A stretch of 64,000 nt of DNA from a virus, in the IMG/VR virus record IMGVR_UViG_3300050821_024084, positions 1 through 64,000 of that record; one strand, written 5' to 3'. Shown here in pieces: positions 7,133 through 60,123 of this stretch. Each line of letters begins with the position of its first letter. Position 1 is the first letter of the stretch. Below the pieces are notes generated by a model that was not told where the DNA came from, did not search any database, and saw only the letters and a program-made list of their open reading frames with translations. The position numbers and the translations under genes were made by a program.

Positions 7133-7984
7133 ATGGGGTACGACCGCGTTGTCAGCGCCGCGCTATCTGAGACGCGGAGCAAGTTCGCCCTGGCAGAGGC
7201 GCTAGCCCTGGACATCCCGCCTCGGGGGCAGGGTCGAGCGCAAAAAGACGACTCCATCCGCCAGCATCTGGAGGTGGCGCGTCGGGAGATCATCGAGGCC
7301 GGGGGAGAGCCTCGCAGTCCTGATACACTTGATGTCTATCGTCGTACTGCGCTATGGGCGACGAGGAAATTGAACGGTACCGTTCAATTTCAGTGGGTAG
7401 GGGGCGCGTCGTGGACAGCTCATCGGGAAGCCTACGAGAGTGGCATGTCCATCGAAGAGTTCCGAGGTCTTCCCGATCAGCGCGTGAATACTGCTCTTCG
7501 AGCTGCGGGCAAGGCGAACAAGTATCCTCCCGTCGGCACAATGACCACATGGCCGGGCAAGCAGCAGATAGCCGCTGTGAAGGCGCTTCCTCCTGAGCGC
7601 CAGGCGGAAATAGTCGAAGCGACACTCCGGGATGACCGGGTGCGTTCTCAAGCTTTTGCCATTATCCGTGACGCGGCGTACCAGAATGAGGCGGAGCAAC
7701 GTGCCATTCAGCAAGATGTCAGGCCGATGTCACCCGGAGTTGCAGCTTCTGCTGCTCTGTTGCGTGGGATGGCTCCTCCGCATGCCAGGGCGCTTGGCCA
7801 TCTAGAGCGGGCTTATCAGGACGTCAAGGATGCTATCCGGGAAATTCGTGCTGCCGAAATGACTTCCGAGGAGATGAAGCCTCTCACTCGGGCGCGGGAG
7901 CAGCTGACCGAATCAGTTGCAGAACTCAATTCCGTCATGTACGAAGGAGATTTTAGTGGCCAAGGCTCACCCTATACCGGCTGA
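7133..7984 (+). CDS. hypothetical DNA-binding-type protein, first of a two-gene unit
   Basis: 283 residues, GAGGAGG ribosome binding site. Mostly helical and charged; a WPGKQQIAAVKALPPERQAEIV stretch and repeated Arg/Glu-rich helices recall partition or regulator proteins, but no family is recognised. A perfect 26-bp palindrome lies inside its coding sequence and another in its leader, which suggests the protein or its partner binds these sites. Codon use is visibly less GC-rich at third positions than in neighbours, a sign of separate origin. It overlaps the next gene by 29 bases. Confidence 0.75.
   Translation: MGYDRVVSAALSETRSKFALAEALALDIPPRGQGRAQKDDSIRQHLEVARREIIEAGGEPRSPDTLDVYRRTALWATRKLNGTVQFQWVGGASWTAHREAYESGMSIEEFRGLPDQRVNTALRAAGKANKYPPVGTMTTWPGKQQIAAVKALPPERQAEIVEATLRDDRVRSQAFAIIRDAAYQNEAEQRAIQQDVRPMSPGVAASAALLRGMAPPHARALGHLERAYQDVKDAIREIRAAEMTSEEMKPLTRAREQLTESVAELNSVMYEGDFSGQGSPYTG
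7366..7391. repeat. perfect 26-bp palindrome inside a coding region
   Basis: The arm GAAATTGAACGGT is followed directly by its exact complement ACCGTTCAATTTC. Within a GC-rich gene this AT-rich symmetric site is unlikely by chance and looks like a protein-binding site (operator or centromere-like). Confidence 0.75.
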
Positions 7985-8447
7985 GGTGTCCGCTCAGCTC
8001 GTCATGAACGTCCTCGGCGACGAGCCTTACACCATGGATCAGGTAATAGAGCAGATCATCGCTAAGCATGATATCCCCGCCGCTCCTACACGTCACCAGG
8101 TGAGGACAGGGATAAAGTTCGTCAAGGAAAATCTCGAAAACCGGCCGGATTACAAGCTTATCGTAGTCGACCAGCGAGGCACTCTCTCTACGTATAGATT
8201 CGCTCGTGAAGCGGCGGACATGAACAGGTATCTTCATCAGCAGGCAAACAAGTGGATGGGGGAGATGATCAATGTCGGGGTAGCGATGGAAGCCGCCCGG
8301 GACCGGCTCACGAATGGAAGGAGCAAGGACCTGGAGAACCTTCGCCGGTCCCTGATCGGCTTGCTCTACCAGCTCGTATCTCTCTACAAAGAGGAGGAAC
8401 AGCCCGCCGCTGAACGGCGTATCGGGGACCGGCTCGGTTCACGTTAA
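7956..8447 (+). CDS. hypothetical protein, second of the palindrome-flanked pair
   Basis: 163 residues from GTG 7956, chosen for its GAAGGAGAT ribosome binding site; it overlaps gene 7133..7984. The N-terminal 80 residues have a helix-turn-helix-like arrangement (YTMDQVIEQIIAKHDIPAAPTR), followed by long charged helices. A small DNA-binding partner of the upstream protein is plausible. A hairpin terminator follows at 8469. Function not assignable. Confidence 0.75.
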   Translation: MAKAHPIPAEVSAQLVMNVLGDEPYTMDQVIEQIIAKHDIPAAPTRHQVRTGIKFVKENLENRPDYKLIVVDQRGTLSTYRFAREAADMNRYLHQQANKWMGEMINVGVAMEAARDRLTNGRSKDLENLRRSLIGLLYQLVSLYKEEEQPAAERRIGDRLGSR

Positions 8448-9593: not shown

Positions 9594-10121
9594 TCACGCG
9601 CTGATGGCCTCGGGCGGGGCGGTGGCAAGCACGTGCTTGCGGGCGTACTCCCGCCCTGCGTGGCGCGCAGCGCGCAGCGTGCGCTCGTCCACGGCACGGG
9701 CGCGGGTAGCTGCCTGGACCGGGGCCGGACGCACAGCCTCCCCGGTCCGGATCTCGCCGGCCACCCCCTGCGCGAATCCCTCGATCGCTGCGCGGGTGGC
9801 CCGCGTGATGTCGTAGGAGTTGGCCGGGGCGGAGCCGGATGCCTGCGCCTGCTTCTGCTCCTTGCGGATCTCGCTGCGACGGCGGGCGGCGAAGTCCTCG
9901 GCTGCCTTGCTGACCTGCTCCCACAGCTCCTCCAGACGGGTGAAGCCGGCATCGGCAGAGACAGTGATCTCGACGGTGACAGGCTGGCCCGAGGTGGAGC
10001 GCGTGGTGCCCTGGGTCAGGCGGGCTTCGGCTCCCAGCGCCGTAGCGAGGGTGTGGTAGGCGTAGGCTCTCGCGACGCCGTGACCTCCGGCAGCGTCGAG
10101 TTCCTTCTGGTGAACGGACAT
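9594..10121 (-). CDS. hypothetical protein, alanine-rich helical
   Basis: 175 residues with AAAGGAG upstream. Composition is Ala/Arg/Glu-rich and helical, with a TVEITVSADAGF beta stretch near residue 50. It is the first gene after the leftward promoter at 10168-10199. No family recognised. Confidence 0.75.
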   Translation of the reverse strand: MSVHQKELDAAGGHGVARAYAYHTLATALGAEARLTQGTTRSTSGQPVTVEITVSADAGFTRLEELWEQVSKAAEDFAARRRSEIRKEQKQAQASGSAPANSYDITRATRAAIEGFAQGVAGEIRTGEAVRPAPVQAATRARAVDERTLRAARHAGREYARKHVLATAPPEAISA

Positions 10122-10167
10122 CGTGAGTTACTCCTTTGGGGGTGCGGTTATGGTGCCTTGCAATTAC

Positions 10168-36954: not shown

Positions 36955-37644
36955 TCAGTCGAGCATCCAGGTGAGCGTCGCATCCGCGTGCGCGACGGTT
37001 GTGTCGAGTACCGGCAGAGACGCTACTTCAGCCGACAGCAGCAGCCCGAGCTCGGTGCAGCCGAGGATCACGCCGTCGCATCCGGCGGCGGCCAGACGTC
37101 CGGTGACGTCGCGCAGCTTGTCCCGGCTCTCCTCGGAGATAACGCCCCGGCAGAGCTCATCATAGATGATCCGGTCCACCATCTGACGATCCGGCTCGTC
37201 AGGAATCGTGATCGTGAGATCACGTTCTGCGAGCGCATCTCGGTAGAACTGGTGTTCCATCGTGTAGCGGGTTCCCAGCAGTCCCGGACGAGTCATATCG
37301 CGTGTGCGAGCGGCAGCAGTCACAGCATCGGCGATATGCAGCACCGGTATCGCGACTGCCGTCGCGATCTGAGAGTAGACGCGATGCATCGTGTTCGTGC
37401 AGATGATGAGTCCCTCTGCGCCGGCATGCTCCAGATTGCGTGCGCACGTGGCCAGATAATCCCCGGCGAGTTCCCACTGCCCGGACGTCTGGAGATATTC
37501 CACGTTCGCGAAGTCGACCGACAGCACGATGCAGCTCGCGGAATGCAGCTCGCCGAGCCGGGTCCGGACACCCTCGTTGAGCAGACGATAATAGACGGCG
37601 GTGCTTTCCCAGCTCATGCCGCCCAGCAGACCGATCGTTTTCAT
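36955..37644 (-). CDS. aspartate/glutamate (broad-specificity) amino acid racemase
   Basis: 229 residues from ATG 37644. IGLLGGMSWESTAVYYRLLN at the start, the catalytic cysteine in IICTNTMH (about 82) and the second in VILGCTELGLL (about 187) are those of the Asp/Glu racemase superfamily (YgeA-like). It would make D-amino acids without cofactor. In a phage this could affect peptidoglycan or supply a D-amino acid, for instance to a peptide or DNA modification; the latter is speculation. Confidence 0.9.
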   Translation of the reverse strand: MKTIGLLGGMSWESTAVYYRLLNEGVRTRLGELHSASCIVLSVDFANVEYLQTSGQWELAGDYLATCARNLEHAGAEGLIICTNTMHRVYSQIATAVAIPVLHIADAVTAAARTRDMTRPGLLGTRYTMEHQFYRDALAERDLTITIPDEPDRQMVDRIIYDELCRGVISEESRDKLRDVTGRLAAAGCDGVILGCTELGLLLSAEVASLPVLDTTVAHADATLTWMLD

Positions 37645-37868
37645 GAATCCGTCCTTCCGTTGTCGAACTGATGTTCGGGAAGCAGGGTCGCTGCGCGACC
37701 CTGCACCCCGCCTGGTAACGCTCGCCGCCGGACCGGCAGCGACATCCCGCGTCCCGGTCTGCGCGAGCAGCCGAGCTTGTGCGCGTGACGCATCTGGCAT
37801 TCCGGGCAGCGTCCGCGCACCCGGAACCAGACCGCCCGGACGCGCTCACTCCAGCTGAGCCCGGTCAT
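37641..37868 (-). CDS. small zinc-finger-like basic protein
   Basis: 75 residues, CAGGAGG ribosome binding site, ATGA overlap with the racemase. CPECQMRHAHKLGC suggests metal binding; the C-terminus ends LPEHQFDNGRTDS, encoded by the GAAC box 3. A perfect GCAGGGTCGC hairpin (37682-37704) lies inside the gene. Confidence 0.6.
   Translation of the reverse strand: MTGLSWSERVRAVWFRVRGRCPECQMRHAHKLGCSRRPGRGMSLPVRRRALPGGVQGRAATLLPEHQFDNGRTDS
37664..37677. promoter_or_regulatory. GAAC-N4-GTTC box 3
   Basis: CGAACTGATGTTCG, 20 bases before the racemase start and inside the end of the preceding gene. Confidence 0.55.
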
Positions 37869-42487: not shown

Positions 42488-42563
42488 CGCGGGGTAGAGG
42501 AGTTCGGTCGTCCTCGTGGCGCTCATAACGCCGAGATCGCAGGTTCAAATCCTGCCCCCGCTA
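42488..42563 (+). tRNA. tRNA-Met (CAT), initiator-like
   Basis: Acceptor CGCGGGG/CCCCGCT with an unpaired first position (C1 and T72), the initiator hallmark; D-arm GAGG...CCTC; anticodon loop CTCATAA in a G/C-rich stem (TGGCG/CGCCG); T-arm GCAGG-TTCAAAT-CCTGC; discriminator A then CGA, so CCA is not encoded. The strict GGG/CCC of initiators is GCG/CGC here. Confidence 0.9.
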
Positions 42564-45346: not shown

Positions 45347-46228
45347 ATGAAACTGAATCAGCCAGGGACCCGCGCGGGACGCGGACCTCTGGCAACGGAA
45401 ACCGTCAGCTCAGTCAAGACGCACGAAGACGGCACCGGCTATCAGCGCGATGAGCGCTCGCAGCTGTTCCTGCTCGCCACCACGACGTTCGCAGGCGAGG
45501 GCAGCTTCTACGAGAGCGCTGCCGTCAGCGACGAGCGACTCAAGACCCTGACGCGCACGCTCGCGATCACGACGGACGGCTGGACGTGGCTCTGCGGATT
45601 CCTGCCGTGGCTGCGGAGCGACGGCAGCATCCGGACTGCATCGCTGATCTGCGCCGCCGAGGCGGTAGCGGCCCGGATCGCGGAACGGAAGCGTCTGCTT
45701 CGTGGGGAACCTGCGACCGGAAGCTACGAGATTCTCGACACGCAGGGTCCGCCCCTGACGCACCGGCAGCTGATCGCAGTCGTCTGCCAGCGCGCCGACG
45801 AGCCCTGCGAGATGCTGGCTTATGCGCTGGGGGTCTGGGGGCGCGCGCTGCCGCTGCCGGTCAAGCGAGGCATCGCTGATGCAGCGGTGCGGCTGTGGAA
45901 CGAGGCTGCCGCGCTGCGCTGGGACAAGCCGGGGAACGCGGTGCGCTTTGCCGACGTACTGGAGCTCTGTCACCCCCGGACCGGAGCAGACTGGCAGAAT
46001 GTCATGTTCCGGGATCTGATCACGGAACGCAAGGGCCGGGACGACTACGAGCCGGACCGGCTGCTCCGCAAGGTGCGAGCACGCTGGCTGCTCAACCAGC
46101 AGCAGCCCGCCGGACGACACGCCATCGCGCGGCACGCGCTGGACGGCGACATGCAGGACCGGAAGCTCATCGACGACGCGGCAGTCGGTCAATGGGAATG
46201 GACACGAAGCTGGCTGGGTGAAAGGTGA
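45347..46228 (+). CDS. Ro60 (TROVE) protein, N-terminal half
   Basis: 293 residues from ATG 45347 (AGAAGGGA upstream). ERSQLFLLATTTFAGEGSFY, DGWTWLCGFLPWLRSDGSIR and KVRARWLLNQQQPAGRHAIA are HEAT-like repeats of the TROVE ring that binds Y RNA and misfolded RNA. It ends at SWLGER. The frame is also open upstream to 45236 with protein-like residues (RPYVEWPRAVIDGRRIRRVED) but no standard start. The ring continues in the next gene, so both must act together, or one base is surplus. Confidence 0.85.
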   Translation: MKLNQPGTRAGRGPLATETVSSVKTHEDGTGYQRDERSQLFLLATTTFAGEGSFYESAAVSDERLKTLTRTLAITTDGWTWLCGFLPWLRSDGSIRTASLICAAEAVAARIAERKRLLRGEPATGSYEILDTQGPPLTHRQLIAVVCQRADEPCEMLAYALGVWGRALPLPVKRGIADAAVRLWNEAAALRWDKPGNAVRFADVLELCHPRTGADWQNVMFRDLITERKGRDDYEPDRLLRKVRARWLLNQQQPAGRHAIARHALDGDMQDRKLIDDAAVGQWEWTRSWLGER

Positions 46229-46229
46229 C

Positions 46230-47204
46230 ATGGAACCAGATCGCCCCCCGGAGCTGATTGAAGGGCCGGGGGTGCAGGGGGAGCCGAAGGAGCTGCGCTC
46301 TGCCCTGCGCCTGACTCCTGCCGAGCAATGGCAGCTCATGATCCCGCAGATGGGCTACATGGCGCTACTGAGACAGCTGCGCGCGTTCGACAAGGCCGGA
46401 ATCCCGGAATCCGTCGCGAACAAGGTCGCGCAGCGGATTGCCGATCCCGCGCAGGTCGCACGCTCGCGACAGCTGCCGTTCCGGTTCTACTCGGCGTACA
46501 TCAACGCGCCGTCGCTCCGCTGGGGGCAGGCACTGGAGCAGGCTCTCCAGGCGTGTCTCCCGAATGTCCCCGAGCTGCCCGGCCGGACGCTGATCCTGAT
46601 CGACACCTCCGGCTCGATGGAGAGCTTCCTCTCCGAGCGACCCGACTCCCGGCCCCGACGGGGGAAGGGCCGCCGGGGCGGCAGCCCGGACGAGCCGCCG
46701 CCCGTCCGGCCGATGCGCGTCCAGGCAGCCGCTCTGCTCGGGCTGGCGCTCGCGCTGAAGAACCCGGAAGCTGTAGATGTCTGGGGTTTCGCTGACGGGC
46801 AGTTCCGGGTCACGGGCATCGGGCCGGGTCAGTCCCTGCTCAAGGCGGTGGAGGCGTTCAGCCGGTGCACCGGCAACGTCGGGCATGGTACGCAGATCGC
46901 GCTGGCGGCCCGGATGTGCTACGGCGCGCACGACCGGGTGTGCATCTTCACGGACATGCAGACCTTCGGGCCGGGCGGAGGATTCGGCTTCTACAGCTCC
47001 TACGGCGTCGGGGATGTCAGCGCGGCGGTGCCTGCGCGGGTGCCGGTCTACGCCTTCAACCTGGCGGGCTACGAGGCGTCGGCTATGCCCGTCGGCGGGG
47101 GCAACCGTCACGAGCTGGGCGGTCTCTCGGACGCGACGTTCACAATGATCCCGGTTATCGAGGCCGGGCGCTCGGCGCGCTGGCCGTGGGAACAAGCAGC
47201 ATGA
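46230..47204 (+). CDS. Ro60 C-terminal half: end of TROVE ring plus vWA domain
   Basis: 324 residues from ATG 46230 (AAAGGTG upstream, one base after the previous stop). GYMALLRQLRAFDKAGIPES and RQLPFRFYSAYINAPSLRWG finish the TROVE ring; LILIDTSGSM begins the vWA domain with a second loop at VGHGTQIALAA and IFTDMQTF. In cellular Ro60 these parts form one chain. Deleting one A of GAAAGG would fuse them, so natural splitting and an error are both possible. Confidence 0.85.
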   Translation: MEPDRPPELIEGPGVQGEPKELRSALRLTPAEQWQLMIPQMGYMALLRQLRAFDKAGIPESVANKVAQRIADPAQVARSRQLPFRFYSAYINAPSLRWGQALEQALQACLPNVPELPGRTLILIDTSGSMESFLSERPDSRPRRGKGRRGGSPDEPPPVRPMRVQAAALLGLALALKNPEAVDVWGFADGQFRVTGIGPGQSLLKAVEAFSRCTGNVGHGTQIALAARMCYGAHDRVCIFTDMQTFGPGGGFGFYSSYGVGDVSAAVPARVPVYAFNLAGYEASAMPVGGGNRHELGGLSDATFTMIPVIEAGRSARWPWEQAA

Positions 47205-50823: not shown

Positions 50824-50927
50824 CAGGGTTACGCTCGCAGGGCGAGCGCACCTGGTACAACTGAATACGCCGCACACCCTCGCAGGACCCGGTACTCTGT
50901 GCCGGGTCCTGTGCTATGCTCAGGAAC

Positions 50928-51617
50928 GTGGATAAGATCGAGCGCGTGAAAATCACCCGGCTGAAGCCATTCCCGGGTAATCCCCGCCGGGGGAACACGG
51001 AGGCGATCGCCGCCTCCTTGCAAGAGCACGGCCTGTACAAGCCGCTCATCGCGCAGCGCAGCACCGGGCACGTGATGGTCGGGAACAACACGCTGGACGC
51101 CGCGCAGCAGCTCGGCTGGACCGAGATCGACGTCATCTACAAGGACGTCGACGATGACCGGGCGCAGCGCATCATGCTGGTGGACAACAAGACCAGCGAC
51201 GAGGCCGACTACGACATGGTGCTGCTGTCAGTCCTCATAGACGCGCTGGAAAATGACTACACCGGCACCGGGTACGACCCGGAAGAAGCCGAGCAGCTCA
51301 TCGCCCTGCGGCATGCGCTGGCAGCCGACGGGGAAGCCGCCGATGAGCTGATCGAGCTGACCGAGGTTCCCGCGACTGGCGCGGCCTACGCCGAGACCCC
51401 GTATCAGGAAGCCGCCCGTGCCGAGCGGCAGGCCCAGCAGACCCCCCGGCAGATCGCCGGGATGCGCGAGATCTTCCTGGTGTACCCGGAAGATGAGCAC
51501 CGGGAGGTCACGGAGCTGCTAGCTCAGCTCCGGGAGGCGTGGGGGGAGGACATCCGCGCGCCGCAGATGGTGCTCCGGCTGCTGCGAGAAGCTGTCGCAG
51601 CCCTGGCTGTGCGGTAA
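50928..51617 (+). CDS. ParB/Srx-like nuclease-fold protein
   Basis: 229 residues from GTG 50928, seven bases after TATGCT without Shine-Dalgarno, hence leaderless. NPRRGNTEAIAASLQEHGLY, KPLIAQ, GHVMVGNNTLDAAQQLGW and DRAQRIMLVDNKTSDEADYD form a ParB/sulfiredoxin-type domain in the first 105 residues; the rest is helical. Such proteins recur in phage DNA-modification operons as well as in partition. Here it heads the hypermodification cassette. Confidence 0.85.
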   Translation: MDKIERVKITRLKPFPGNPRRGNTEAIAASLQEHGLYKPLIAQRSTGHVMVGNNTLDAAQQLGWTEIDVIYKDVDDDRAQRIMLVDNKTSDEADYDMVLLSVLIDALENDYTGTGYDPEEAEQLIALRHALAADGEAADELIELTEVPATGAAYAETPYQEAARAERQAQQTPRQIAGMREIFLVYPEDEHREVTELLAQLREAWGEDIRAPQMVLRLLREAVAALAVR

Positions 51618-51627
51618 GCTGGGGACC

Positions 51628-52536
51628 ATGCAACTAGGAATGCAGGTCAGCGAGCTGTGGGACGACTACGTCCGGTTTCACCGGCTCGCTCTGGAAACTC
51701 GTGACGTGGATCCCGTCTACCCGGTGCTCCGCCGGATATGTGACACCCAGGACTGGAGCACCGAGAAACGCGTTCAGGCGGTGCTCGCGCATGTCACGTA
51801 CTACGATCTCGGCTCCGCGCTGCTGGCGCTGGAGACCGGCGACTGGCGCAAGCGCCCGATGGGCACGGAGCGTCGCAATCTGTTCCCGGACGAGCAGCTG
51901 GGCAAGCACCTGATCTCGACAGAGAAGGAAGTCGTTTTCTACGGCGGATACGTGCGCTGGCTCGGGGACGATCTGTCCGGCACGGACCGTCAGGGCAACT
52001 GGCGCATCGTCACCGAGCGGCTGCTGCGCGTGCACGGCAACGGTCGATGGGCCGCGTACAAGACATGCGAGATGCTCGCGGAGATCGCGGATTTCCCGCT
52101 CGACGCCCCGGACATGGGGCATGCCTACTCCACCGGTCCCCGGCAGGGCCTGAATCTGCTGTATCCCGCTGCGCGTCTGGTACGCGGCATGCGCCCGGAC
52201 GCCATCAGCGCGCTGGACGCCTACAGTACCCGGCTGTGCGCCCGGCTGGAAGATGCGGGACTCCCGGCGCGCATCGCCCAGACCGAGACCACGCTCTGCG
52301 ACTTCCACGGTCTGGTAACAGGCCGGTACTACGTCGGGCATGACATTGATCTCATGCAGAAACAGCTCCTGAAGGCGGGGGAGGCCGGGGGGGATCTGGT
52401 GGAAGCAGCCTGGCGCGCACGGCTGGCGGTACTGCCGGCGAGCTACCTGGGGGAGGTAGGCCGTCGCTGGGAGGGACCGGACCGGCTGCGCAAGCTGGCG
52501 TACCGGCGCACGGGGGAGATCCTCACGCGTGACTGA
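51628..52536 (+). CDS. glycosylase-like helical protein, candidate amino-acid:DNA transferase (aGPT-PPlase type)
   Basis: 302 residues, leaderless start seven bases after TAAGCT. All-helical; RRICDTQDWSTEKRVQAVLA, HVTYYDLGSALLALETG, RLLRVHGNGRWAAYKTCEML resemble the HhH-glycosylase-derived thymine pyrophosphorylase/amino-acid transferase proteins predicted for phage base hypermodification. Neighbouring TET/JBP, DNA kinase and FAD oxidase genes fit that assignment. I am not certain of the subfamily. Confidence 0.6.
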   Translation: MQLGMQVSELWDDYVRFHRLALETRDVDPVYPVLRRICDTQDWSTEKRVQAVLAHVTYYDLGSALLALETGDWRKRPMGTERRNLFPDEQLGKHLISTEKEVVFYGGYVRWLGDDLSGTDRQGNWRIVTERLLRVHGNGRWAAYKTCEMLAEIADFPLDAPDMGHAYSTGPRQGLNLLYPAARLVRGMRPDAISALDAYSTRLCARLEDAGLPARIAQTETTLCDFHGLVTGRYYVGHDIDLMQKQLLKAGEAGGDLVEAAWRARLAVLPASYLGEVGRRWEGPDRLRKLAYRRTGEILTRD

Positions 52537-53404
52537 CGGCTGGACATACGGCGTCGAGCTGGAGTGGCCGGATGTTGACGTCCGGACGGAGCTGCCGGAC
52601 GAATGGGCGTGGTCAGCCACGGACTACACCGTGGTCAGTTCCGACGGCATAGCGAACGATCCTAAACGCGAGCTGATCCTGCACGGCGGGGAGCTGAACT
52701 CCCCGGTGTGCCGGTCGCCGGAAGAACTGAGCGAGCGCAGCCTGGAGCTGGCCGAGCTGCTCCGGCCGGGCCGGAACTACCGCTCCAATCTGCATATCCA
52801 CCTTGCGATGCCGGAGCTGGAGAACCTGGAGCTGCTCAAGCAAGCAGCGGATTTCACCTGGCGTGAGCTGCCGCGCACGCTGGAGGTCATGGATCCGCTG
52901 CGGATGCTGCTCAACGGCCTGACTGATACTGATGAGATTGCCGGAGCGGAGAAGCGGATGGCGCATTCTGCGCGGTCCCGGCACTACTTCACCAGCCGGA
53001 CGCGTCACCTGATGCGGATGCAGGCCCGGTCGCGAGAGGAATTCCTCCGGGCGGAAGTGCCGCTGCGCAAGCGCGACGGTGCGCCGCAGTGGCAGCTCGC
53101 CCCGCGCGAGGCGGTGAACTTCCGGTCGCTGCGCAAGCACGGGACCGTGGAGTTCCGGTTCTTTGCCGGGGATGACCGGGGCCACGGCGTGCGGGCAGCG
53201 GCGAGCTTCGCGCGGGACTGGATGCGCTGCGCCTGCGAGGACAATAAGGGCTTCGAGGTGCCGTACTGGGATGAGCTGCCGGTGCAGCTCCCGTTCGAGC
53301 TGCGGCTTGAGCGGGGCTGGGCCTGGACCAATCTCCAGCACAATTCGCGTGACACGGTTCGACAGCGCCTGGCTGATATGGGTAAGCTGGATGCATGTAC
53401 GTGA
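52529..53404 (+). CDS. amidoligase (COOH-NH2 ligase, ATP-grasp-like/GCS fold)
   Basis: 291 residues from GTG 52529. YGVELEWPDV at the start, ELILHGGELNSPVC, SNLHIHLAMPELE and AVNFRSLRKHGTVEFRFFAG are the core motifs of the amidoligase family, which forms amide bonds with amino acids. In the cassette it could join an amino acid or amine to a modified base; substrate is inferred from context. Confidence 0.83.
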   Translation: MTDGWTYGVELEWPDVDVRTELPDEWAWSATDYTVVSSDGIANDPKRELILHGGELNSPVCRSPEELSERSLELAELLRPGRNYRSNLHIHLAMPELENLELLKQAADFTWRELPRTLEVMDPLRMLLNGLTDTDEIAGAEKRMAHSARSRHYFTSRTRHLMRMQARSREEFLRAEVPLRKRDGAPQWQLAPREAVNFRSLRKHGTVEFRFFAGDDRGHGVRAAASFARDWMRCACEDNKGFEVPYWDELPVQLPFELRLERGWAWTNLQHNSRDTVRQRLADMGKLDACT

Positions 53405-53805
53405 TGGTCGTCTGCGCCGGGAATGTCGCTCGCAGTCCTGCGCTGGCCTGCCTGCTCCAGGCGTCCCGGGCGGATCTGCGAGTGGAATCAGCTGGCGTCG
53501 GCCGCAAGGCTGTTGCCGGCCTGCGGATGAAGAAGCCGATGCGCGGGCTGCTCACGCAGGCGGGCTACGCGGAATTCGCGCAGGCGCATCGCAGTCGGCT
53601 GATAGCCGATCTGCCAGAGCGCCCGGATCTGTGTATCGCGGTCGGTGTCCCGCAGATGCGACGCCTGGAAGAGCTGCTGCCGGACGTGCCCCGGCAGGCG
53701 TGCGATCCGCTGATTCCTGACCCGGCCTACGGAGATCAGGTCTCCTACGACCGGGCCTGGACGTGTATCCTGGAGAACGCCGCCCGGCTGGCGGTGGCCC
53801 TGTGA
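53395..53805 (+). CDS. low-molecular-weight protein-tyrosine-phosphatase-like enzyme
   Basis: 136 residues, leaderless start six bases after TAAGCT. Active-site loop VVCAGNVARSPAL (C-x5-R-S) at about 5-17 and the acid loop IPDPAYGDQ at about 106. Usual length of LMW-PTP/arsenate-reductase folds. In this cassette it might hydrolyse a phosphorylated base intermediate; not known. Confidence 0.85.
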   Translation: MYVMVVCAGNVARSPALACLLQASRADLRVESAGVGRKAVAGLRMKKPMRGLLTQAGYAEFAQAHRSRLIADLPERPDLCIAVGVPQMRRLEELLPDVPRQACDPLIPDPAYGDQVSYDRAWTCILENAARLAVAL

Positions 53806-54638
53806 AGCTTATCGTGGTGGGGGCAGGCATCGCCGGGTCGGCCCTGTGCCAGCTCGCTGAAGAGCGCGGGCACGACGTGACGCTGGTGTCGGACGGCGTG
53901 CCGGACAGCCTGGCGGCGACGGCGGTGCTGCGGCGCGGTTACCATGCGGGCAAGCCGGACCAGCTGGCGGCCCTGGACTACGCCCTGGACTGCTACCAGC
54001 GGTGGGGGGTGCCGGTGCGCCGGGGCGGGCTAGGGCAGAGCTACCGGCGGCTCGGGGATGAGCCGGTGGCAGATGAGGACTGGCTCCTGCTGGACCCCGC
54101 CGCTCCGCTGGCGGAACCCGACGTGCGCGCTGAGATCCTGACGGTGAAGAACGGGACGGCGTGGCTCGGGGCGGGCCGGTCGCTGGAAGGCGATGCTGTT
54201 GTTGTCGCAACCGGTGCCCGGGAGGGCAATCTCCAGGCGACAGGGAGCGTCACCTGGGGCGTCACCCTGGTGCACAGCCATCCGGAGGCGCTGCGCGACG
54301 AGCAGATCCGCATCTACCAGTGGGCCCCGTACCGGACGATCGTCGCCGGGGTAGTGAACGGGGAAGCCCGGGTGGGCTCGTCATCGGCCCGGAGCCCGGA
54401 TGCGGCCCGGAACCAGATGACCAAGATGCTGGAGAAAGCCTGGGGTCTGGGCTGGCTGACCACGCGAAAAAGCTGGGGCGAGGTGCTGGGCGCGCGACTG
54501 AAGACCGAGCAGCTGTCCTGGCGGGATCCTGAGGACGGGGCCTGGCGGCTGGCCGGGTTCCACCGGACCGGCTATGCGCTAGCTCCGGCTGCGGCACGTG
54601 ATCTGCTGAGCGAGATCGAGTTGACGGTCAGCGGGTAA
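53802..54638 (+). CDS. FAD-dependent oxidoreductase (DAO-type, DNA-modification associated)
   Basis: 278 residues from GTG 53802 (GTGA overlap). MKLIVVGAGIAGSALCQLAE is the Rossmann dinucleotide fold; DAVVVATGA at about 130; C-terminal RLAGFHRTGYALAPAAA closes the fold. Short members of this family accompany TET/JBP and kinase genes in phages and are thought to oxidise base-attached amino acids. Role here by context. Confidence 0.83.
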   Translation: MKLIVVGAGIAGSALCQLAEERGHDVTLVSDGVPDSLAATAVLRRGYHAGKPDQLAALDYALDCYQRWGVPVRRGGLGQSYRRLGDEPVADEDWLLLDPAAPLAEPDVRAEILTVKNGTAWLGAGRSLEGDAVVVATGAREGNLQATGSVTWGVTLVHSHPEALRDEQIRIYQWAPYRTIVAGVVNGEARVGSSSARSPDAARNQMTKMLEKAWGLGWLTTRKSWGEVLGARLKTEQLSWRDPEDGAWRLAGFHRTGYALAPAAARDLLSEIELTVSG

Positions 54639-54649
54639 TCTGCTAGTCT
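54621..54649 (+). promoter_or_regulatory. promoter with 17-base spacer, leaderless
   Basis: TTGACG (54621-54626) and TAGTCT (54644-54649); GTG 54657 follows seven bases later. The clearest leaderless promoter in the window. Confidence 0.8.
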
Positions 54650-54656
54650 CGGGTAT

Positions 54657-55244
54657 GTGTACCTGGTATACCTGACGGGAGCGCCTGCGACCGGGAAATC
54701 CTCGCTGATGGCCCGGCTGACGAACGGTCTCACGCGCGTGCCGCAGCTGGCAGACGGCGTGGTTCCGTACGAGGAGCTGCTGGCTCCTGACGGGCGGATG
54801 ACCGGTGTGGAGCTCGGCAAGCGCCGGGAGCGATTCTCCGGCACGGACGCGATGGCGTACAGCATCATGCCGAAGGTCTGCGCCTGGGTGGAGCGCTCCA
54901 TGCGCGAGCTGATGCTGGGCGAGGGCGATCGCCTGTCCAGCATGAAGTTCCTGACTGCTGCTGAGAAGGCGGGCTACGAGATACATCTCGTGCATCTGAG
55001 TGCCCGGCAGTCCGTGCTGGACGAGCGCTGCGAGGCACGAGGAAGCCGCCAGTCCCGGCACTGGCGCATCGGGCGCGTCACGATGGCTGTCCGCCTGGCG
55101 GCTCACGCAGAAGCTGCCGGGCACACGGTGCACACGCTGGATGCCGAGCGCCCGCTTGATGAGCTGGTGCGTGAGATGCGGGAGCAGATGCCGTTCCTGC
55201 TGGAACTGGGGAACGCCGATGATCCGGTTGCGACTCGCCACTAG
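54657..55244 (+). CDS. P-loop kinase, hydroxymethyl-pyrimidine DNA kinase type
   Basis: 195 residues from GTG 54657. Walker A YLTGAPATGKSSLMARL at 5-21, DGVVPYEEL, acidic RMTGVELGKRRE and a C-terminal HWRIGRVTMAVRLAAHAEAAG. Matches phage 5-hydroxymethyl-uracil DNA kinases that phosphorylate the oxidised base in DNA to allow substitution. Directly upstream of the TET/JBP gene, overlapping by 26 bases. Confidence 0.8.
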   Translation: MYLVYLTGAPATGKSSLMARLTNGLTRVPQLADGVVPYEELLAPDGRMTGVELGKRRERFSGTDAMAYSIMPKVCAWVERSMRELMLGEGDRLSSMKFLTAAEKAGYEIHLVHLSARQSVLDERCEARGSRQSRHWRIGRVTMAVRLAAHAEAAGHTVHTLDAERPLDELVREMREQMPFLLELGNADDPVATRH

Positions 55245-56529
55245 AGTAGCAGATCGCGTTATCAAGGAAAAGCTCGAAGGCTATACCCTAGGTGAGCAGG
55301 ACTATGACGTCCTGGTGCGCGGGAAGGCGCTCGTGCGGATGCCGGACGGACGTCCGCTGCTGTGCTATCTGCCGGGCGTCCTGAAAGAGACCCAGGAGCG
55401 CGAGGGCGTCTACGATATTCTGCATCCGCTGTACACGCACATGACCAACAACCGGGGCGCGGCCAGCGGGACGCGGAGGATCGTCCGGGGGTCCGGCGAG
55501 AAGACCGGCAAGCGCAGCGATGCGATGTCGGTGGCCTCGCCGTTCATCGGGGCGGCAGATCCCGGCGGGATCTACCGGTACTGCCGTCTGACAGAATGGA
55601 CTGGCAGTCATCTCCCGCAGTGGGAGGCACTGCATCCGTATCTCCGGGAGATCGCGCATCACTTCGAGCAGCAGATCCCGGATCGGCATGCCGTCCAGAT
55701 GGAGTACGTGCAGCGCACCGACCACGCCTGGGTCGTGCCGGGAACGCCGTTCACCACTATCACCGTCAACAACTCGTTCGCGACGGGCGTGCACAAGGAC
55801 GCCGGGGATCTGGAGACGGGGTTCTCCGCGCTGTCCTGCCTGCGTCAGGGCGACTACGAGGGCGGCGTCCTGGTGTTTCCCGCGTATCGCATCGGGGTAG
55901 ACATGCAGGACGGGGATCTGCTGCTGATGGACGCGCATCAGTGGCACGGCAACACCCGCATGATGTGCGGCTGCGGGGAGCCTATCCAGCGGCGGTTCTG
56001 CGAGACGTGCGGGGCTGAGCGGATCAGCGTGGTGTGCTATTACCGGACTAAGATAGCCGACTGCGGCACCCCGGAAGAGGAACTGGAACGCGCCGTGACG
56101 GACACGGAGCGCCGGTCAGGACTAGGAGACGAGCTTGATGAGCGGGACACGAACTCAGACCCTGCAAGTGGACTCCCGGGCGCTCCAGCGGTACGTGCAG
56201 GGGATGACCTACCAGCAGATAGCGGACGCGGAGCAGTGCTCCGAGCAGACAGCTCACATCCGGGTCCGCCGGGCGATCCGGAACCAGTACCGGCTGGAAG
56301 CCGACGAGCTCCGCGTCGTCGCGGACGAGCAGCTCAGCTTCCTGACCCGGCAGCTGACCGCGCTGATCCACAAGAAGTCCTACAAGATAGCGCCCAACGG
56401 GAAGATCGCCGTTCACCCGGAGACCGGGGAGCCGCTGGAGGACTACAGCGAGCAGCGGATGACCGCGCTGGCGCTGCTCAAGGTGGGCGAGTCCCGGCGC
56501 AAGCTGCTCGGACTCGACCAGCCAGTTAA
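55219..56529 (+). CDS. TET/JBP-family 2-oxoglutarate/Fe(II) dioxygenase (base hydroxylase)
   Basis: 436 residues from ATG 55219. TITVNNSFATGVHKDAGDLE carries the H-x-D iron motif; GGVLVFPAYRIGVDMQDGDL and LMDAHQWHGNTRM the distal His and 2-oxoglutarate region; a CGCGEP...CETCG zinc knuckle follows. It should hydroxylate thymine or 5-methylcytosine in DNA. The real end is probably near 56125: beyond that the frame only shadows the terminase gene and looks non-coding, suggesting a one-base shift just before 56130. Confidence 0.88.
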   Translation: MIRLRLATRVADRVIKEKLEGYTLGEQDYDVLVRGKALVRMPDGRPLLCYLPGVLKETQEREGVYDILHPLYTHMTNNRGAASGTRRIVRGSGEKTGKRSDAMSVASPFIGAADPGGIYRYCRLTEWTGSHLPQWEALHPYLREIAHHFEQQIPDRHAVQMEYVQRTDHAWVVPGTPFTTITVNNSFATGVHKDAGDLETGFSALSCLRQGDYEGGVLVFPAYRIGVDMQDGDLLLMDAHQWHGNTRMMCGCGEPIQRRFCETCGAERISVVCYYRTKIADCGTPEEELERAVTDTERRSGLGDELDERDTNSDPASGLPGAPAVRAGDDLPADSGRGAVLRADSSHPGPPGDPEPVPAGSRRAPRRRGRAAQLPDPAADRADPQEVLQDSAQREDRRSPGDRGAAGGLQRAADDRAGAAQGGRVPAQAARTRPAS

Positions 56530-56662
56530 GCACCGGGTGGAGATCACCGACAAGATGGACTCCGAGATCGAGCGCCTGGCGCAGGATCTCGCTGCGAACG
56601 GCGCAGGCGAGCCGGTGCTGCCGGAGCTACCTGCCGGGGTGACGTCCGGTGACGGAGACTGA
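56138..56662 (+). CDS. terminase small subunit
   Basis: 174 residues from ATG 56138. RALQRYVQGMTYQQIADAEQ, CSEQTAHIRVRRAIRN is the DNA-recognising helix-turn-helix; the middle is a helical oligomerisation region (DEQLSFLTRQLTALIHKKS); C-terminus Gly/Pro-rich. Immediately precedes and overlaps the large subunit. Confidence 0.83.
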   Translation: MSGTRTQTLQVDSRALQRYVQGMTYQQIADAEQCSEQTAHIRVRRAIRNQYRLEADELRVVADEQLSFLTRQLTALIHKKSYKIAPNGKIAVHPETGEPLEDYSEQRMTALALLKVGESRRKLLGLDQPVKHRVEITDKMDSEIERLAQDLAANGAGEPVLPELPAGVTSGDGD

Positions 56663-59390
56663 CGAGCCTCCGGAGCTCCCCCCTAACTGGCGGGATCTCG
56701 GTCCTGATGCCAAGCGCGTGCTGCTGCACAAGCTGCGCGGCATGGCGGTCAGCAAAGGACTGGGCGGACCTCGTGAGTGGCGGTCGAAAGCGCGGCCCAA
56801 GCAGCTGCCCCCGAGTGACCCAGCACATCATCTGCCGGACGGTAACGGGTTCAGATGCGGATGTTCCGGTCCTGATGAGAACTGGAATATCTGGATGTTC
56901 ATGGCCGGCCGGGGGTGTGTTGCCGGGCATACGCGCATCTGGCTACCGCTGGAGAACCGGTTCGAGCGGATCGATACGCTAGTCCGTCAGGGAGAGGCCG
57001 TCATTGTCCTCTCCCTGACGGAGAATGGCGCAGAACCACGTCAGACTGACGGGGCTCCTTTCATCGGGGGCGTGGCAGAGCTGTATGATGTGCTGACTTC
57101 GGACGGCAACCGCATCACGGTGACTGACCGGCATCGTTTCCTGACTCCGCAAGGATGGCTGCCACTCGCTCGCGTGCACGTCGGACAGCTTCTTGCCGGA
57201 GGCGCTCCCGCTCCTCCGCAGGAAGCTTCTTCACACCGGTCAGGGTGGCGTGAAGATGCTCGGAATTGGCGGGGAACACGCGAAGATTCTCCGGACGATT
57301 ATCCGAGGTATCCCCGTTCACATGATCAACTACCTCGTCAGGGGACAGGCAGCGTCCTAGCACCTGCTCCATCACGAGTCGATGCTGCCGGACATACCCG
57401 AGATTATTCATGTGAGGATGATTTCTCATCTTCACGAGAATGTAACCGTCCTCGTCGACTGCATAGCCTCCCTTCCAGAAGTAGTTATGCTCGGGACGCG
57501 CTTTCGCCTCTAGACACGGAAGTCCGAGTTCTATCAGGCGTGAGCGAACTGTCTCTGCGTTACAGCCGAGGATGGCTGCCATTTCCGTGCATGTCATCTG
57601 CTGGGCATGCAAGTCGCGGAGCTTATCAGTGTCTACAGGCATGCGACTGCCCTGAGACATGCGCTTGCGCGACAGGTCAGAAGCCCTATGCCCTCGCAGC
57701 TGCACCCCGGCACGTTGCAGAGCGCGTCCTACGGTCTGATAACTTGTTCCGGTTGTCTGAGCAAGGTCTTTCAGCGGCTCTCCTTCCTGATAGCGCCGGA
57801 TCAGGTCCGGAAGAAGATCTGACGGTATCTTGGAGTACTCTCGGCTCGGCATGTGAGCATGGTATCACGTGGACGAGAGTACGGTCGGTCCGGTCTGCGG
57901 GAACAGGATGGTTTTATGACCTGACTGTCCCTGGTGCAGAGAATTATGCGGCGGAAGGTCTCTGGCATCACAATTGCGGAAAAACCTGGTCGGGCGCTAA
58001 CTGGATAATTGAACAGGCGCTCCGGAACCCGGGAACGATGTGGGCGGTCGTTGCCCCGACATTCCGGGATGTCCGGGTCACGTGCTTCGAAGGCCCCTCC
58101 GGGATTCGACGTCTTCTTCAGCCTGGTGAGGAAGATCAATGGCGCAGGAATGAGCTGCGCCTGGATCTGGTGAATGGCTCCGTTATTTACGGGTATTCGG
58201 CTGACCAGCCGGAACGATTGCGCGGATCTAACCTTTCCGGGGCGTGGGTAGATGAAATGGGGAGTTTTGCGTATGAGGAAACCTGGTATGAGGGACTAGT
58301 CCCTGCGCTACGTATCGGGGAACATCCCCGTGTCATGGTCACCACGACTCCGCGCCCGACGAAGCTCATCCGGGATCTGTACTCGCGTCGCGACGGCACC
58401 GTTCACACCACCACGGCCTCCACCTGGGAGAATGCGGCCAACCTGTCGGCTGCCGCCCTCGATGAGCTCAAGCGCCGGTACGAAGGCACCCGGCTGGGCC
58501 GTCAGGAGCTTGAAGGCGTCCTCCTGGAGGATCTGGAAGGCGCGCTGTGGCGGCGCAGCGATATCGACGCTGCGCGAGTCAGGCCGGAGGACGTGCCAGA
58601 TCTGGCCCGCGTGGTGGTGGCGATCGACCCGGCGATGAGCGCCGACGAGGATGCTGACGAGACGGGCATCATCGTGTCCGGGGAAGACGGGCGCGGCCAC
58701 GGGTACGTCCTGGCGGACTGGTCGATGCAGGGCACGCCCGAGGCATGCATGCGGCGGGCTGTCCAGGCGTACAAGCACTACAACGCGGACTGCGTCGTGG
58801 CTGAGGTCAACAACGGCGGTGACTTTATCGGCACGGTGCTGCGCACCGTCGATCCGAATCTGCCCTACCATCAGGTGCGGGCCTCGCGCGGGAAGGCGAT
58901 CCGGGCAGAGCCTGTGTCGTCACTGGCGGAGCAGCACCGGCTGCATCACGTGGGGAACTTCCCGGAGCTGGAAGATCAGCTCTGCTCATTCGTCCCGGGA
59001 ATCGCCGGGCCGTCCCCGGACCGGCTTGACGCGCTGGTCTGGTCAGTATTCGAGCTGAAGAGCTTGTCGCAGTCCAGCTGGCTCTCCGCGTACGGAGCCA
59101 TCCGCTGCACGCAATGCGAGATGGCGTTCCGGGGCTCGGCGACGTGCCCGCGCTGCGGAGCAGATGCACCTGCATCGCCTGACGGGGGAAGCTTCTCCCC
59201 GGAGGGGGCGGGGGAGGATCGCAGCATGGGCGGCTGGGCCTCGGTGTACCGGCTGGCCAGGTGCAGCAAGGGACACGTGTACTCTGAGCGGTCCGGTGGC
59301 TGCCCGCAGTGCCGGTCCGGCGGCCTGGACTGGCTGCGCGCGCACGGCAAGCCCGGTGGACAGGCAGGTTCCGGGGCGGTAAGCTCGTAG
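56649..59390 (+). CDS. terminase large subunit interrupted by an intein
   Basis: 913 residues as encoded from GTG 56649; 560 after removal of the 353-residue intein. Exteins join as MFMAGRG + CGKTWSGAN, i.e. exactly inside Walker A. Walker B SNLSGAWVDEMGS and motif III VMVTTTPRPTK follow; nuclease acids appear in VVVAIDPAMSADEDADETGI, DCVVAEVNNGGDF and PDRLDALVWSVF. The C-terminus has two zinc ribbons (CTQCEMAF...CPRCGAD; CSKGH...CPQCRSG). It cuts and pumps DNA into the capsid. Confidence 0.95.
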   Translation: MTETDEPPELPPNWRDLGPDAKRVLLHKLRGMAVSKGLGGPREWRSKARPKQLPPSDPAHHLPDGNGFRCGCSGPDENWNIWMFMAGRGCVAGHTRIWLPLENRFERIDTLVRQGEAVIVLSLTENGAEPRQTDGAPFIGGVAELYDVLTSDGNRITVTDRHRFLTPQGWLPLARVHVGQLLAGGAPAPPQEASSHRSGWREDARNWRGTREDSPDDYPRYPRSHDQLPRQGTGSVLAPAPSRVDAAGHTRDYSCEDDFSSSRECNRPRRLHSLPSRSSYARDALSPLDTEVRVLSGVSELSLRYSRGWLPFPCMSSAGHASRGAYQCLQACDCPETCACATGQKPYALAAAPRHVAERVLRSDNLFRLSEQGLSAALLPDSAGSGPEEDLTVSWSTLGSACEHGITWTRVRSVRSAGTGWFYDLTVPGAENYAAEGLWHHNCGKTWSGANWIIEQALRNPGTMWAVVAPTFRDVRVTCFEGPSGIRRLLQPGEEDQWRRNELRLDLVNGSVIYGYSADQPERLRGSNLSGAWVDEMGSFAYEETWYEGLVPALRIGEHPRVMVTTTPRPTKLIRDLYSRRDGTVHTTTASTWENAANLSAAALDELKRRYEGTRLGRQELEGVLLEDLEGALWRRSDIDAARVRPEDVPDLARVVVAIDPAMSADEDADETGIIVSGEDGRGHGYVLADWSMQGTPEACMRRAVQAYKHYNADCVVAEVNNGGDFIGTVLRTVDPNLPYHQVRASRGKAIRAEPVSSLAEQHRLHHVGNFPELEDQLCSFVPGIAGPSPDRLDALVWSVFELKSLSQSSWLSAYGAIRCTQCEMAFRGSATCPRCGADAPASPDGGSFSPEGAGEDRSMGGWASVYRLARCSKGHVYSERSGGCPQCRSGGLDWLRAHGKPGGQAGSGAVSS
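56916..57974 (+). mobile_element. TerL intein with antisense endonuclease gene
   Basis: 353 codons. Block A begins with Cys1 (CVAGHTRIWLPLENRF); block B is GNRITVTDRHRFLTPQGW; block F is TGWFYDLTVPGAENYAAEG; block G ends WHHN followed by Cys+1. Between roughly codons 105 and 300 the sense frame has no known motif and low-complexity composition; on the other strand the same bases encode an HNH endonuclease (57115..57852). Confidence 0.92.
57115..57852 (-). CDS. HNH homing endonuclease encoded antisense within the intein
   Basis: 245 residues from ATG 57852, six bases after the leftward -10-like TACCAT. Two DNA-binding helix-turn-helix units (EGEPLKDLAQTTGTSYQTVG and CTEMAAILGCNAETVRSRL) precede a classic HNH_3 nuclease: HRLVMEQVLGRCLSPDEVVD, HVNGDTSDNRPENLRVF, NSEHLHATL. 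Complete and apparently intact. It would cut intein-less terminase genes. Encoding on the strand opposite to the host intein is highly unusual. Confidence 0.92.
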   Translation of the reverse strand: MPSREYSKIPSDLLPDLIRRYQEGEPLKDLAQTTGTSYQTVGRALQRAGVQLRGHRASDLSRKRMSQGSRMPVDTDKLRDLHAQQMTCTEMAAILGCNAETVRSRLIELGLPCLEAKARPEHNYFWKGGYAVDEDGYILVKMRNHPHMNNLGYVRQHRLVMEQVLGRCLSPDEVVDHVNGDTSDNRPENLRVFPANSEHLHATLTGVKKLPAEERERLRQEAVRRARERVAAILAESGNDAGQSP

Positions 59391-59794: not shown

Positions 59795-60123
59795 CCAGCG
59801 CGGGAGGCGCGGTCACGATGTCCCGGCTGTCGCTCCAGTACGTGTCCGTCCCGGTGCAGGCGTACAAGGGGGGCACGGTCTACAATCCCACGAATGACGT
59901 GGTGGAATTCGCCTTCGTACAGAATTACGGGACGGTGCCGTCCAGCTGGGCGGCGGGCAGCTGGGTATCGCAGCTGAATTACACGTATCCGTATGCGGCT
60001 CAGTGCCTGGTGGGGCCAGGCGGGGCGACGGCACCGACCACGGGGGTTTACAACATCTGGGTGCAGATCCAGGACGATCCGGAAGTCCCGGTGTTCATCG
60101 CCGGTCAATTGCAGATCATATGA
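59791..60123 (+). CDS. probable minor structural protein
   Basis: 110 residues from ATG 59791. Beta-sandwich pattern YVSVPVQAYKGGTVYNPTND, VVEFAFVQNYGTVPSSW; such proteins lie between terminase and portal in many actinophages. Decoration or stabilising role is guesswork. Confidence 0.7.
   Translation: MTSAGGAVTMSRLSLQYVSVPVQAYKGGTVYNPTNDVVEFAFVQNYGTVPSSWAAGSWVSQLNYTYPYAAQCLVGPGGATAPTTGVYNIWVQIQDDPEVPVFIAGQLQII

Follow-up and report, generated by a model that had tools for sequence, protein, structure and literature searches.

The window analysed here is a stretch of 64,000 bases, namely bases 1–64,000 of the 101,021-base IMG/VR virus record IMGVR_UViG_3300050821_024084 (record label G000). 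Directly upstream of its terminase genes it carries seven genes, all on the + strand between 50916 and 56529, which probably constitute a cassette for the post-replicative hypermodification of thymine with a conserved extra conjugation step. This extra step would be due to an amidoligase and a low-molecular-weight (LMW) phosphatase; ligase and phosphatase are a conserved pair, which also occurs in other viruses, and this back half of the cassette is new. The genes, which are separated by gaps of 10–18 bases or overlap by 4–26 bases, are the following:

50916..51617, +, ParB-N-domain protein, possible DNA-binding/targeting subunit (PF02195 (ParB_N) 6.8e-8; phrog_723 7.3e-43)
51628..52536, +, amino acid:DNA transferase (AADT), predicted to place an amino acid, likely glycine, onto 5-phosphomethyl-deoxyuridine (5-phosphomethyl-dU) (PF18724 (ADDT) 1.1e-13)
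52529..53404, +, amidoligase of the glutamine synthetase (GS)/glutamate-cysteine ligase (GCL) fold, predicted amide former on a DNA-borne side chain (AlphaFold model, conserved residues)
53395..53805, +, LMW phosphatase, partner of the amidoligase (PF01451 (LMWPc) 8.2e-6)
53802..54638, +, flavin adenine dinucleotide (FAD) enzyme, predicted N-alpha-glycinylthymidine lyase yielding 5-aminomethyl-dU (DAO 1.2e-6; AlphaFold model)
54657..55244, +, P-loop DNA kinase whose predicted substrate is 5-hydroxymethyl-dU in DNA (PF18751 (Ploopntkinase3) 2.1e-33)
55219..56529, +, TET/JBP dioxygenase, predicted thymine 5-methyl hydroxylase (PF12851 (Tet_JBP) 1.4e-17)

Six of the seven products (ParB, AADT, phosphatase, FAD enzyme, kinase and TET) exceeded the Pfam cut-off, and the GC content at third codon positions (GC3) was 0.79–0.88 across the seven genes and the helix-turn-helix (HTH) gene that follows them. 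The same seven genes in identical order, at 48–62% identity, were found on another viral contig (L010 and L020 are one contig), and the same set recurs in L019, so that chance neighbourhood was ruled out. L019 carries one inserted gene, for a class I S-adenosylmethionine (SAM) methyltransferase (7396–8004), between AADT and ligase. The first-pass annotation had described an adjacent, partly overlapping cassette just before terminase; this observation was confirmed, and its interpretation as a base hypermodification cassette is supported by the comparative evidence. Its labels for the ParB-like protein, the amidoligase, the LMW phosphatase and the P-loop DNA kinase were borne out, and those for the FAD oxidase and the TET/JBP dioxygenase held for the family with corrected coordinates (FAD start at 53802; TET start at 55219 and frame to 56529). 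The "glycosylase-like" label for 51628–52536 was rejected, as this gene matches AADT and solved AADT/"Glycinyltransferase" structures.

In order to collect related loci, IMG/VR was searched with a three-row amidoligase alignment alone. The seed alignment was built from AADT-bearing loci and the counts describe one ligase subfamily. Of the 23 viral contigs obtained, 20 contain AADT by whole-record Pfam analysis, the other three being 6.2, 4.3 and 8.5 kb long; the same analysis gave LMWPc in 19/23, HMUDK_hel in 14/23, TET in 7/23 and thymidylate synthase in 13/23. Adding phage Simon and the window record gives 25 ligase records, which correspond to 22 distinct ligase sequences, include many fragments and are not independent. 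LMWPc was found in 21 of them, TET in 8, HMUDK in 15, a C5-methylase in none and an FAD-lyase-like gene (own profile) in 15.

Wherever the phosphatase is present (21 records), it comes directly after the ligase in the order of cassette genes; in L036 short open reading frames (ORFs) lie between the two. In L022 (7998–9335) ligase and phosphatase even share one open frame of 446 residues, from the start of the ligase domain to the stop, and both Pfam domains of the fused protein are over the cut-off. For comparison, 22 records with AADT and without ligase (12 + 10, among which L011/L012 and L013–L016 look like mutual copies) contained no LMWPc (21/25 vs 0/22; Fisher 1.5e-9; long records 8/12 vs 0/17, 1.2e-4), and these Fisher values overstate independence because ligase and comparator records include copies. 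A profile check of 18 AADT comparators without ligase, which left out G025, G026, G027 and G029, gave 0/18, against 9/9 ligase records as positive controls. The further conjugation step that the first-pass annotation had proposed for amidoligase and phosphatase is thereby given comparative support.

Among all cultured phage records searched via tblastn, only Simon and a Vibrio phage lacking AADT matched the ligase queries, and only Simon matched the Simon phosphatase query (the window phosphatase was not used as query); such searches would miss distant relatives. The AADT queries matched 17 (window AADT) and 90 (Simon AADT) cultured phage records. The relative in Vibrio phage 2.275 is 26% identical to the amidoligase and lies near deazaguanine genes in a record without AADT match. 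Here the ligase subfamily thus occurs only in viral records with AADT or in fragments, plus this one divergent copy. A scan of a genome-contig collection with two ligase motifs gave 23 pattern matches and 0 confirmed relatives. A description of the ligase-phosphatase pair was not found in open full texts, and a mention in the key primary papers is possible.

GS-superfamily amidoligases were reportedly described by Iyer et al. in 2009. The window amidoligase itself gave no Pfam match at E<=1, no PHROG match at E<=0.1 and no NCBIfam match, and both its sequence comparison with the PDB and a single-sequence scan of IMG/VR were unproductive. The assignment rests on a 60%-identical relative (L010), which passes Pfam Amidoligase_2 (7.1e-5), and on a confident AlphaFold model from 21 sequences (mean pLDDT 93.7) that matches GS/GCL structures. 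Foldseek placed glutamate-cysteine ligase on top (E 0.012), with GCL, YbdK, glutamine synthetase and Dop on ranks 1–25, while with VIA the predicted glutathione synthase 1tt4 scored Z 10.2 (217 residues at 4.2 A) and YbdK 1r8g scored Z 9.4, with GS/GCL-type enzymes among the 50 matches listed. Furthermore, 25/25 aligned rows keep the E-x-E and T-x-E-F-R strands, an R and an H without change, so that modelled fold and conserved residues both point to a GS-superfamily amidoligase. Another phage amidoligase has been given a role in peptidoglycan modification (as far as the available part of PMC11945000 goes); this candidate function was rejected here, since the module printed for that enzyme has GGCT and ATP-grasp partners. 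For the phosphatase, the CX5RS loop was found in 21/21 rows and the Asp-Pro acid in 19/19 rows, which, together with the Pfam match, indicates an LMW protein tyrosine phosphatase (CX5R(S/T), Asp-Pro).

The front half of the cassette very probably follows the known route from thymine via 5-hydroxymethyluracil (hmU), phosphomethyl-U and glycyl-T to aminomethyl-U, with TET making hmU inside DNA, because the AADT matches a "Glycinyltransferase" and the FAD model a glycinylthymidine lyase. By profile comparison with the PDB, the AADT, the defining enzyme of the AADT-based systems, matched 25qc (AADT, 3.3e-18) and 8z2m ("Glycinyltransferase", 6.7e-10). The AlphaFold model of the FAD enzyme (pLDDT 83.8) had as its top match 8z79/8z2o, that is, gp47 of Pseudomonas phage PaMx11, titled as an N-alpha-glycinylthymidine FAD-dependent lyase (E 2.5e-16 in Foldseek; in VIA, Z 22.3 and 25% identity, with 256 residues aligned at 3.0 A). 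The predicted fold is thus closest to NGTO, 8z79 being first in both Foldseek and VIA with CmiS2 within 1 Z; glycine oxidases and, lower, MnmC (Z 19.3) follow. The kinase carries the Walker A motif GAPATGKS and its PF18751 match indicates a dedicated P-loop enzyme, for which the DNA kinase role is predicted. By sequence, the FAD enzyme and TET had no match in the PDB and the kinase gave weak RecA rows only. The earlier suggestion that a hydroxylated pyrimidine is phosphorylated, the phosphate displaced by an amino acid and the adduct trimmed fits these enzyme families, which have solved members, the FAD one being titled for glycinylthymidine.

The TET frame starts with the ATG at 55219 and stops at 56529, ~390 bases (about three quarters) into the next gene. 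Homology to its relatives ends near 56121, where L019/L020 have a Pro/Ala/Lys-rich tail of ~110 residues, and the HxD...H...R residues are invariant in 18/18 rows. No match to PF00145 (C5-methylase) or PF00303 (thymidylate synthase) was obtained in the 101-kb record. The window record therefore shows neither the phage C5-cytosine methyltransferase of phage TET-based 5-methylcytosine (5mC) hypermodification nor the thymidylate-synthase homologue serving as nucleotide-pool 5-hydroxymethyl-dU (hmdU) synthase; TET/JBP is found there instead, which makes it a variant of AADT-based thymidine hypermodification and not the standard form. Across the ligase records the AADT/ligase/phosphatase core is accompanied by TET in one type and by HMUDK plus a thymidylate-synthase homologue in the other: TET and HMUDK occur together in 0 records, two records of 4.7 and 8.5 kb have neither, and 0/7 TET-type contigs have a thymidylate-synthase match. 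This alternation around the same core, in combination with the missing C5-methylase match, favours thymine, as the first-pass annotation had supposed. Most simply the TET product would be hmU, since hmU also seems to be what the shared core works on in the HMUDK-type records. The 5-(2-aminoethyl)uridine of M6-like phages is traced, in the accessible part of the source, to the synthase/HMUDK pair acting as deoxyuridylate hydroxymethyltransferase and 5hmdU kinase, respectively (PMC11946847). In the RSND..WG..GAN motif the Asn is invariant in the 14/14 synthases with that column, which is supporting only. At this column dCMP-hydroxymethylases carry Asp, and the numbering differs by one residue when E. 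coli thymidylate synthase is taken for comparison.

The slot taken by the new pair can be read from gene order. Simon has AADT-(two small ORFs)-FAD-amidoligase-LMW phosphatase-kinase-HMUDK-Nmad5-thymidylate synthase and PaMx11 has AADT-FAD-acetyltransferase-kinase-HMUDK-thymidylate synthase, so that the Simon pair occupies the acetyltransferase slot and Simon-type ligase loci keep the PaMx11 order around it. From this swap we infer an amide on the aminomethyl amine. The ligase also stands in a pyridoxal phosphate (PLP)-type locus (L037), beside a PLP enzyme over the cut-off and a radical-SAM-like gene below it; L040 resembles L037 by eye. A comparable locus exists in M6, where the product is an amine: its AADT is followed by a PLP-type gene ("threonine dehydratase"), and M6 DNA carries aminoethyl-dU according to the available portion of PMC6449724. 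In L022 the ligase neighbours a radical-SAM-like gene below the cut-off and in L039 radical SAM and FAD genes, while in L030 an aspartate decarboxylase (9794–10159; PF02261 1.5e-37) directly follows the ligase and FAD genes, hinting at aspartate or beta-alanine chemistry.

In the proposed sequence of events TET/JBP would hydroxylate the thymine 5-methyl group in DNA to hmU, as family and context suggest, with the ParB protein perhaps helping to target the enzymes, and the P-loop kinase would phosphorylate the hmU. AADT would then swap the phosphate for an amino acid, most likely glycine, and the FAD enzyme would oxidatively cleave the N-linked glycine to leave 5-aminomethyl-dU, in keeping with its match to an enzyme solved for that substrate. 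In place of the PaMx11 acetyltransferase, the amidoligase would use ATP to join the primary amine to a carboxylic acid; fold and locus context make glutamate or aspartate, through the carboxyl of its side chain, the most likely donor. The phosphatase would assist the ligase, probably by dephosphorylating a phosphorylated donor or by-product, as fusion and linkage may suggest. Such a decoration would shield the virion DNA from host nucleases. It is quite possible, though short of probable, that the GS-type ligase and the LMW phosphatase make up a portable module of two genes, through which glutamate, aspartate or beta-alanine is attached whole, in amide linkage, to the aminomethylated thymine of phage DNA. 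Such a module would use a phosphorylated donor unmasked by the phosphatase, would combine with TET-made as well as nucleotide-pool-made hydroxymethyluracil and would take the place of acetylation. In the amidoligase tree, from which L027, L032 and L034 were dropped as copies of L026, L031 and L033, the 8 TET-type rows grouped weakly (52/80), and because of this no number of independent front-end swaps is claimed.

Several observations weigh against the proposed cassette function. Four ligase records of 60–110 kb (G012, G019, G021 and G022) have no LMWPc, so that the phosphatase is not obligatory; two of these have an NT5C-like gene nearby (L037 by Pfam, L040 by eye). None of the Foldseek ligase matches fell under E 0.001, CmiS2 ties with the thymidine lyase in the FAD comparison (Z 22.0 vs 22.3), and the window kinase is not accompanied by the HMUDK_hel domain (no PF18723 match in the 101-kb record). 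In L023 and L031 a single small ORF separates AADT from the kinase behind it, and no FAD gene was recognised there; the FAD slot of L025 holds a Trp-halogenase-like flavoenzyme (the L029 contig ends before this slot); the ligase may therefore sometimes act straight on the AADT product. Finally, a glycosyltransferase and a nucleotide-sugar epimerase lie ~40–45 kb from the cassette, outside the window. The earlier statement that neither cytosine methylase nor glycosyltransferase is visible thus stands for the former (PF00145 absent), whereas a glycosyltransferase was met in the record, outside the window, without a systematic search for such genes. The two genes, a nucleotide-sugar epimerase and a group 1 glycosyltransferase, are located at the far record end (L009 13676–14854 and 16969–18021, – strand).

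The gaps in the FAD slot of L023 and L031, which both have ligase and AADT, would suit a thymine pathway in which the amidoligase works before or instead of the FAD lyase, activating the carboxylate of N-glycyl-thymine and adding an amine. The unrelated CmoY offers a precedent, as it amidates a DNA-borne carboxylate, that of carboxymethylcytosine, with glycine (available text of PMC12783734). We consider this order of steps unlikely, since an FAD-lyase-like gene, whose enzyme is expected to remove just that carboxylate, is present in 15/25 ligase records and the acetyltransferase slot swap points to an amine acceptor. Likewise, the phosphatase might edit the product by stripping the phosphate from 5-phosphomethyl-dU left unused by AADT, thereby setting the extent of thymine modification; 5-phosphomethyl-U is an aryl-methyl phosphate and could fit an LMW phosphatase pocket. 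This role appears somewhat doubtful, because the phosphatase tracks the ligase and not kinase or AADT (0/22 AADT records without ligase) and is fused to the ligase in L022.

A cytosine pathway, in which TET would oxidise host or phage 5mC to 5-hydroxymethylcytosine for decoration by the same downstream enzymes, is highly improbable. Phage TETs are reportedly active on 5mC (Burke et al. 2021), and a host methylase could supply this base. PF00145, however, was matched in 0/25 ligase records including the 101-kb record, several of them being short fragments, and on this ground the cytosine target was rejected. In addition, the same AADT/ligase core occurs with a thymidylate-synthase homologue in other phages, and thymidine is named in the title of the solved FAD relative.

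Among known systems, PaMx11 (gp46 AADT, gp47 FAD lyase/NGTO, gp48 acetyltransferase) shares with the window the FAD lyase fold (Z 22.3), a P-loop kinase and an AADT from a family of which structures have been solved. It differs in having a thymidylate-synthase homologue and HMUDK where the window has TET/JBP, and an acetyltransferase where the window has amidoligase and LMW phosphatase. For Rhodococcus phage Tonitrus a five-gene set with ParB, TET, AADT and kinase has been put forward as a possible thymidine hypermodification system in the accessible part of PMC11955845. As judged from the matches in the window, ParB, TET/JBP, AADT and a P-loop kinase near terminase are common to it and the Tonitrus-type actinophages, where the AADT is termed "aGPT-Pplase2" and TET stays below the Pfam cut-off. 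In contrast, no amidoligase or LMW phosphatase was found in the latter, and their TET, distant in sequence, precedes AADT while the window TET comes last. In MakoManhole, Phelemich, Kozie and LilMcDreamy AADT and kinase were over the Pfam cut-off and TET below it (5.7e-4, 8.3e-5, 1.2e-5 and 2.2e-3, respectively); ParB was matched in MakoManhole, Phelemich and LilMcDreamy, and none was found in Kozie. LilMcDreamy has an Asp/Arg-hydroxylase-domain gene (L006 2656–3759) between AADT and kinase, where Phelemich has an FAD gene.

CmoA/CmoX/CmoY, which yield a 5-carboxymethylcytosine-glycine amide, resemble the window in an ATP-dependent amide on a base side chain (predicted here) and in a ParB-domain protein often nearby; they differ in the base (cytosine), the carboxymethyl handle and an asparagine-synthetase-like, AMP-forming ligase instead of one with GS fold (PMC12783734, as far as available). 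MnmC is described, in the accessible part of PMC3648344, as an FAD enzyme that removes the carboxymethyl group from cmnm5U at the tRNA wobble position to give aminomethyl-U. This is the bond change predicted for the window FAD lyase, and MnmC is among the matches of its model, whereas the MnmC substrate is RNA and methylation follows instead of amide formation.

If the proposed module is real, the known chemistry of thymine in DNA would gain the ATP-dependent formation of amides by a new enzyme family that has its own phosphatase, TET/JBP and nucleotide-pool routes would feed one common tailoring module, and enzymes able to attach chosen acids to DNA would be at hand. The comparison also argues for these phage TETs as thymine hydroxylases, and the product prediction is testable.

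The cassette is bounded downstream by two genes:

56135..56662, +, HTH protein, small terminase by position only, cassette boundary (Sigma70_r4_2 and HTH_23 matches)
56649..59390, +, large terminase with intein, downstream boundary (Terminase_6N 1e-19; Intein_splicing 6e-11)

An HNH endonuclease ORF lies antisense within the terminase intein stretch (57115–57852, –). A portal-like ORF of 2179 codons extends from window position 59993 to record position 66532; its first 1236 codons match a LAGLIDADG domain and PHROGs of unrelated enzymes, so this second packaging gene probably carries an intein as well. Between 9600 and 42500 the ORFs are mainly on the minus strand and include several cellular-type domains (DUF5753, DUF1707, GMC oxidoreductase, radical SAM), which suggests either a host flank or part of a phage-plasmid. 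An att-site search at the tRNA-Met at 42488 yielded no second 14-base copy in the record. In the 327-kb comparator contig L011, AADT occurs with two TETs, three ParB-like ORFs and a kinase-like gene that stays below the Pfam cut-off; a C5-methylase lies elsewhere in the record. In the window, an Asp/Glu/hydantoin racemase is encoded at 36955–37800 (–, 2.4e-41) and a TROVE (Ro60-like) protein at 46218–47204 (2.3e-13), a few genes upstream of the cassette.

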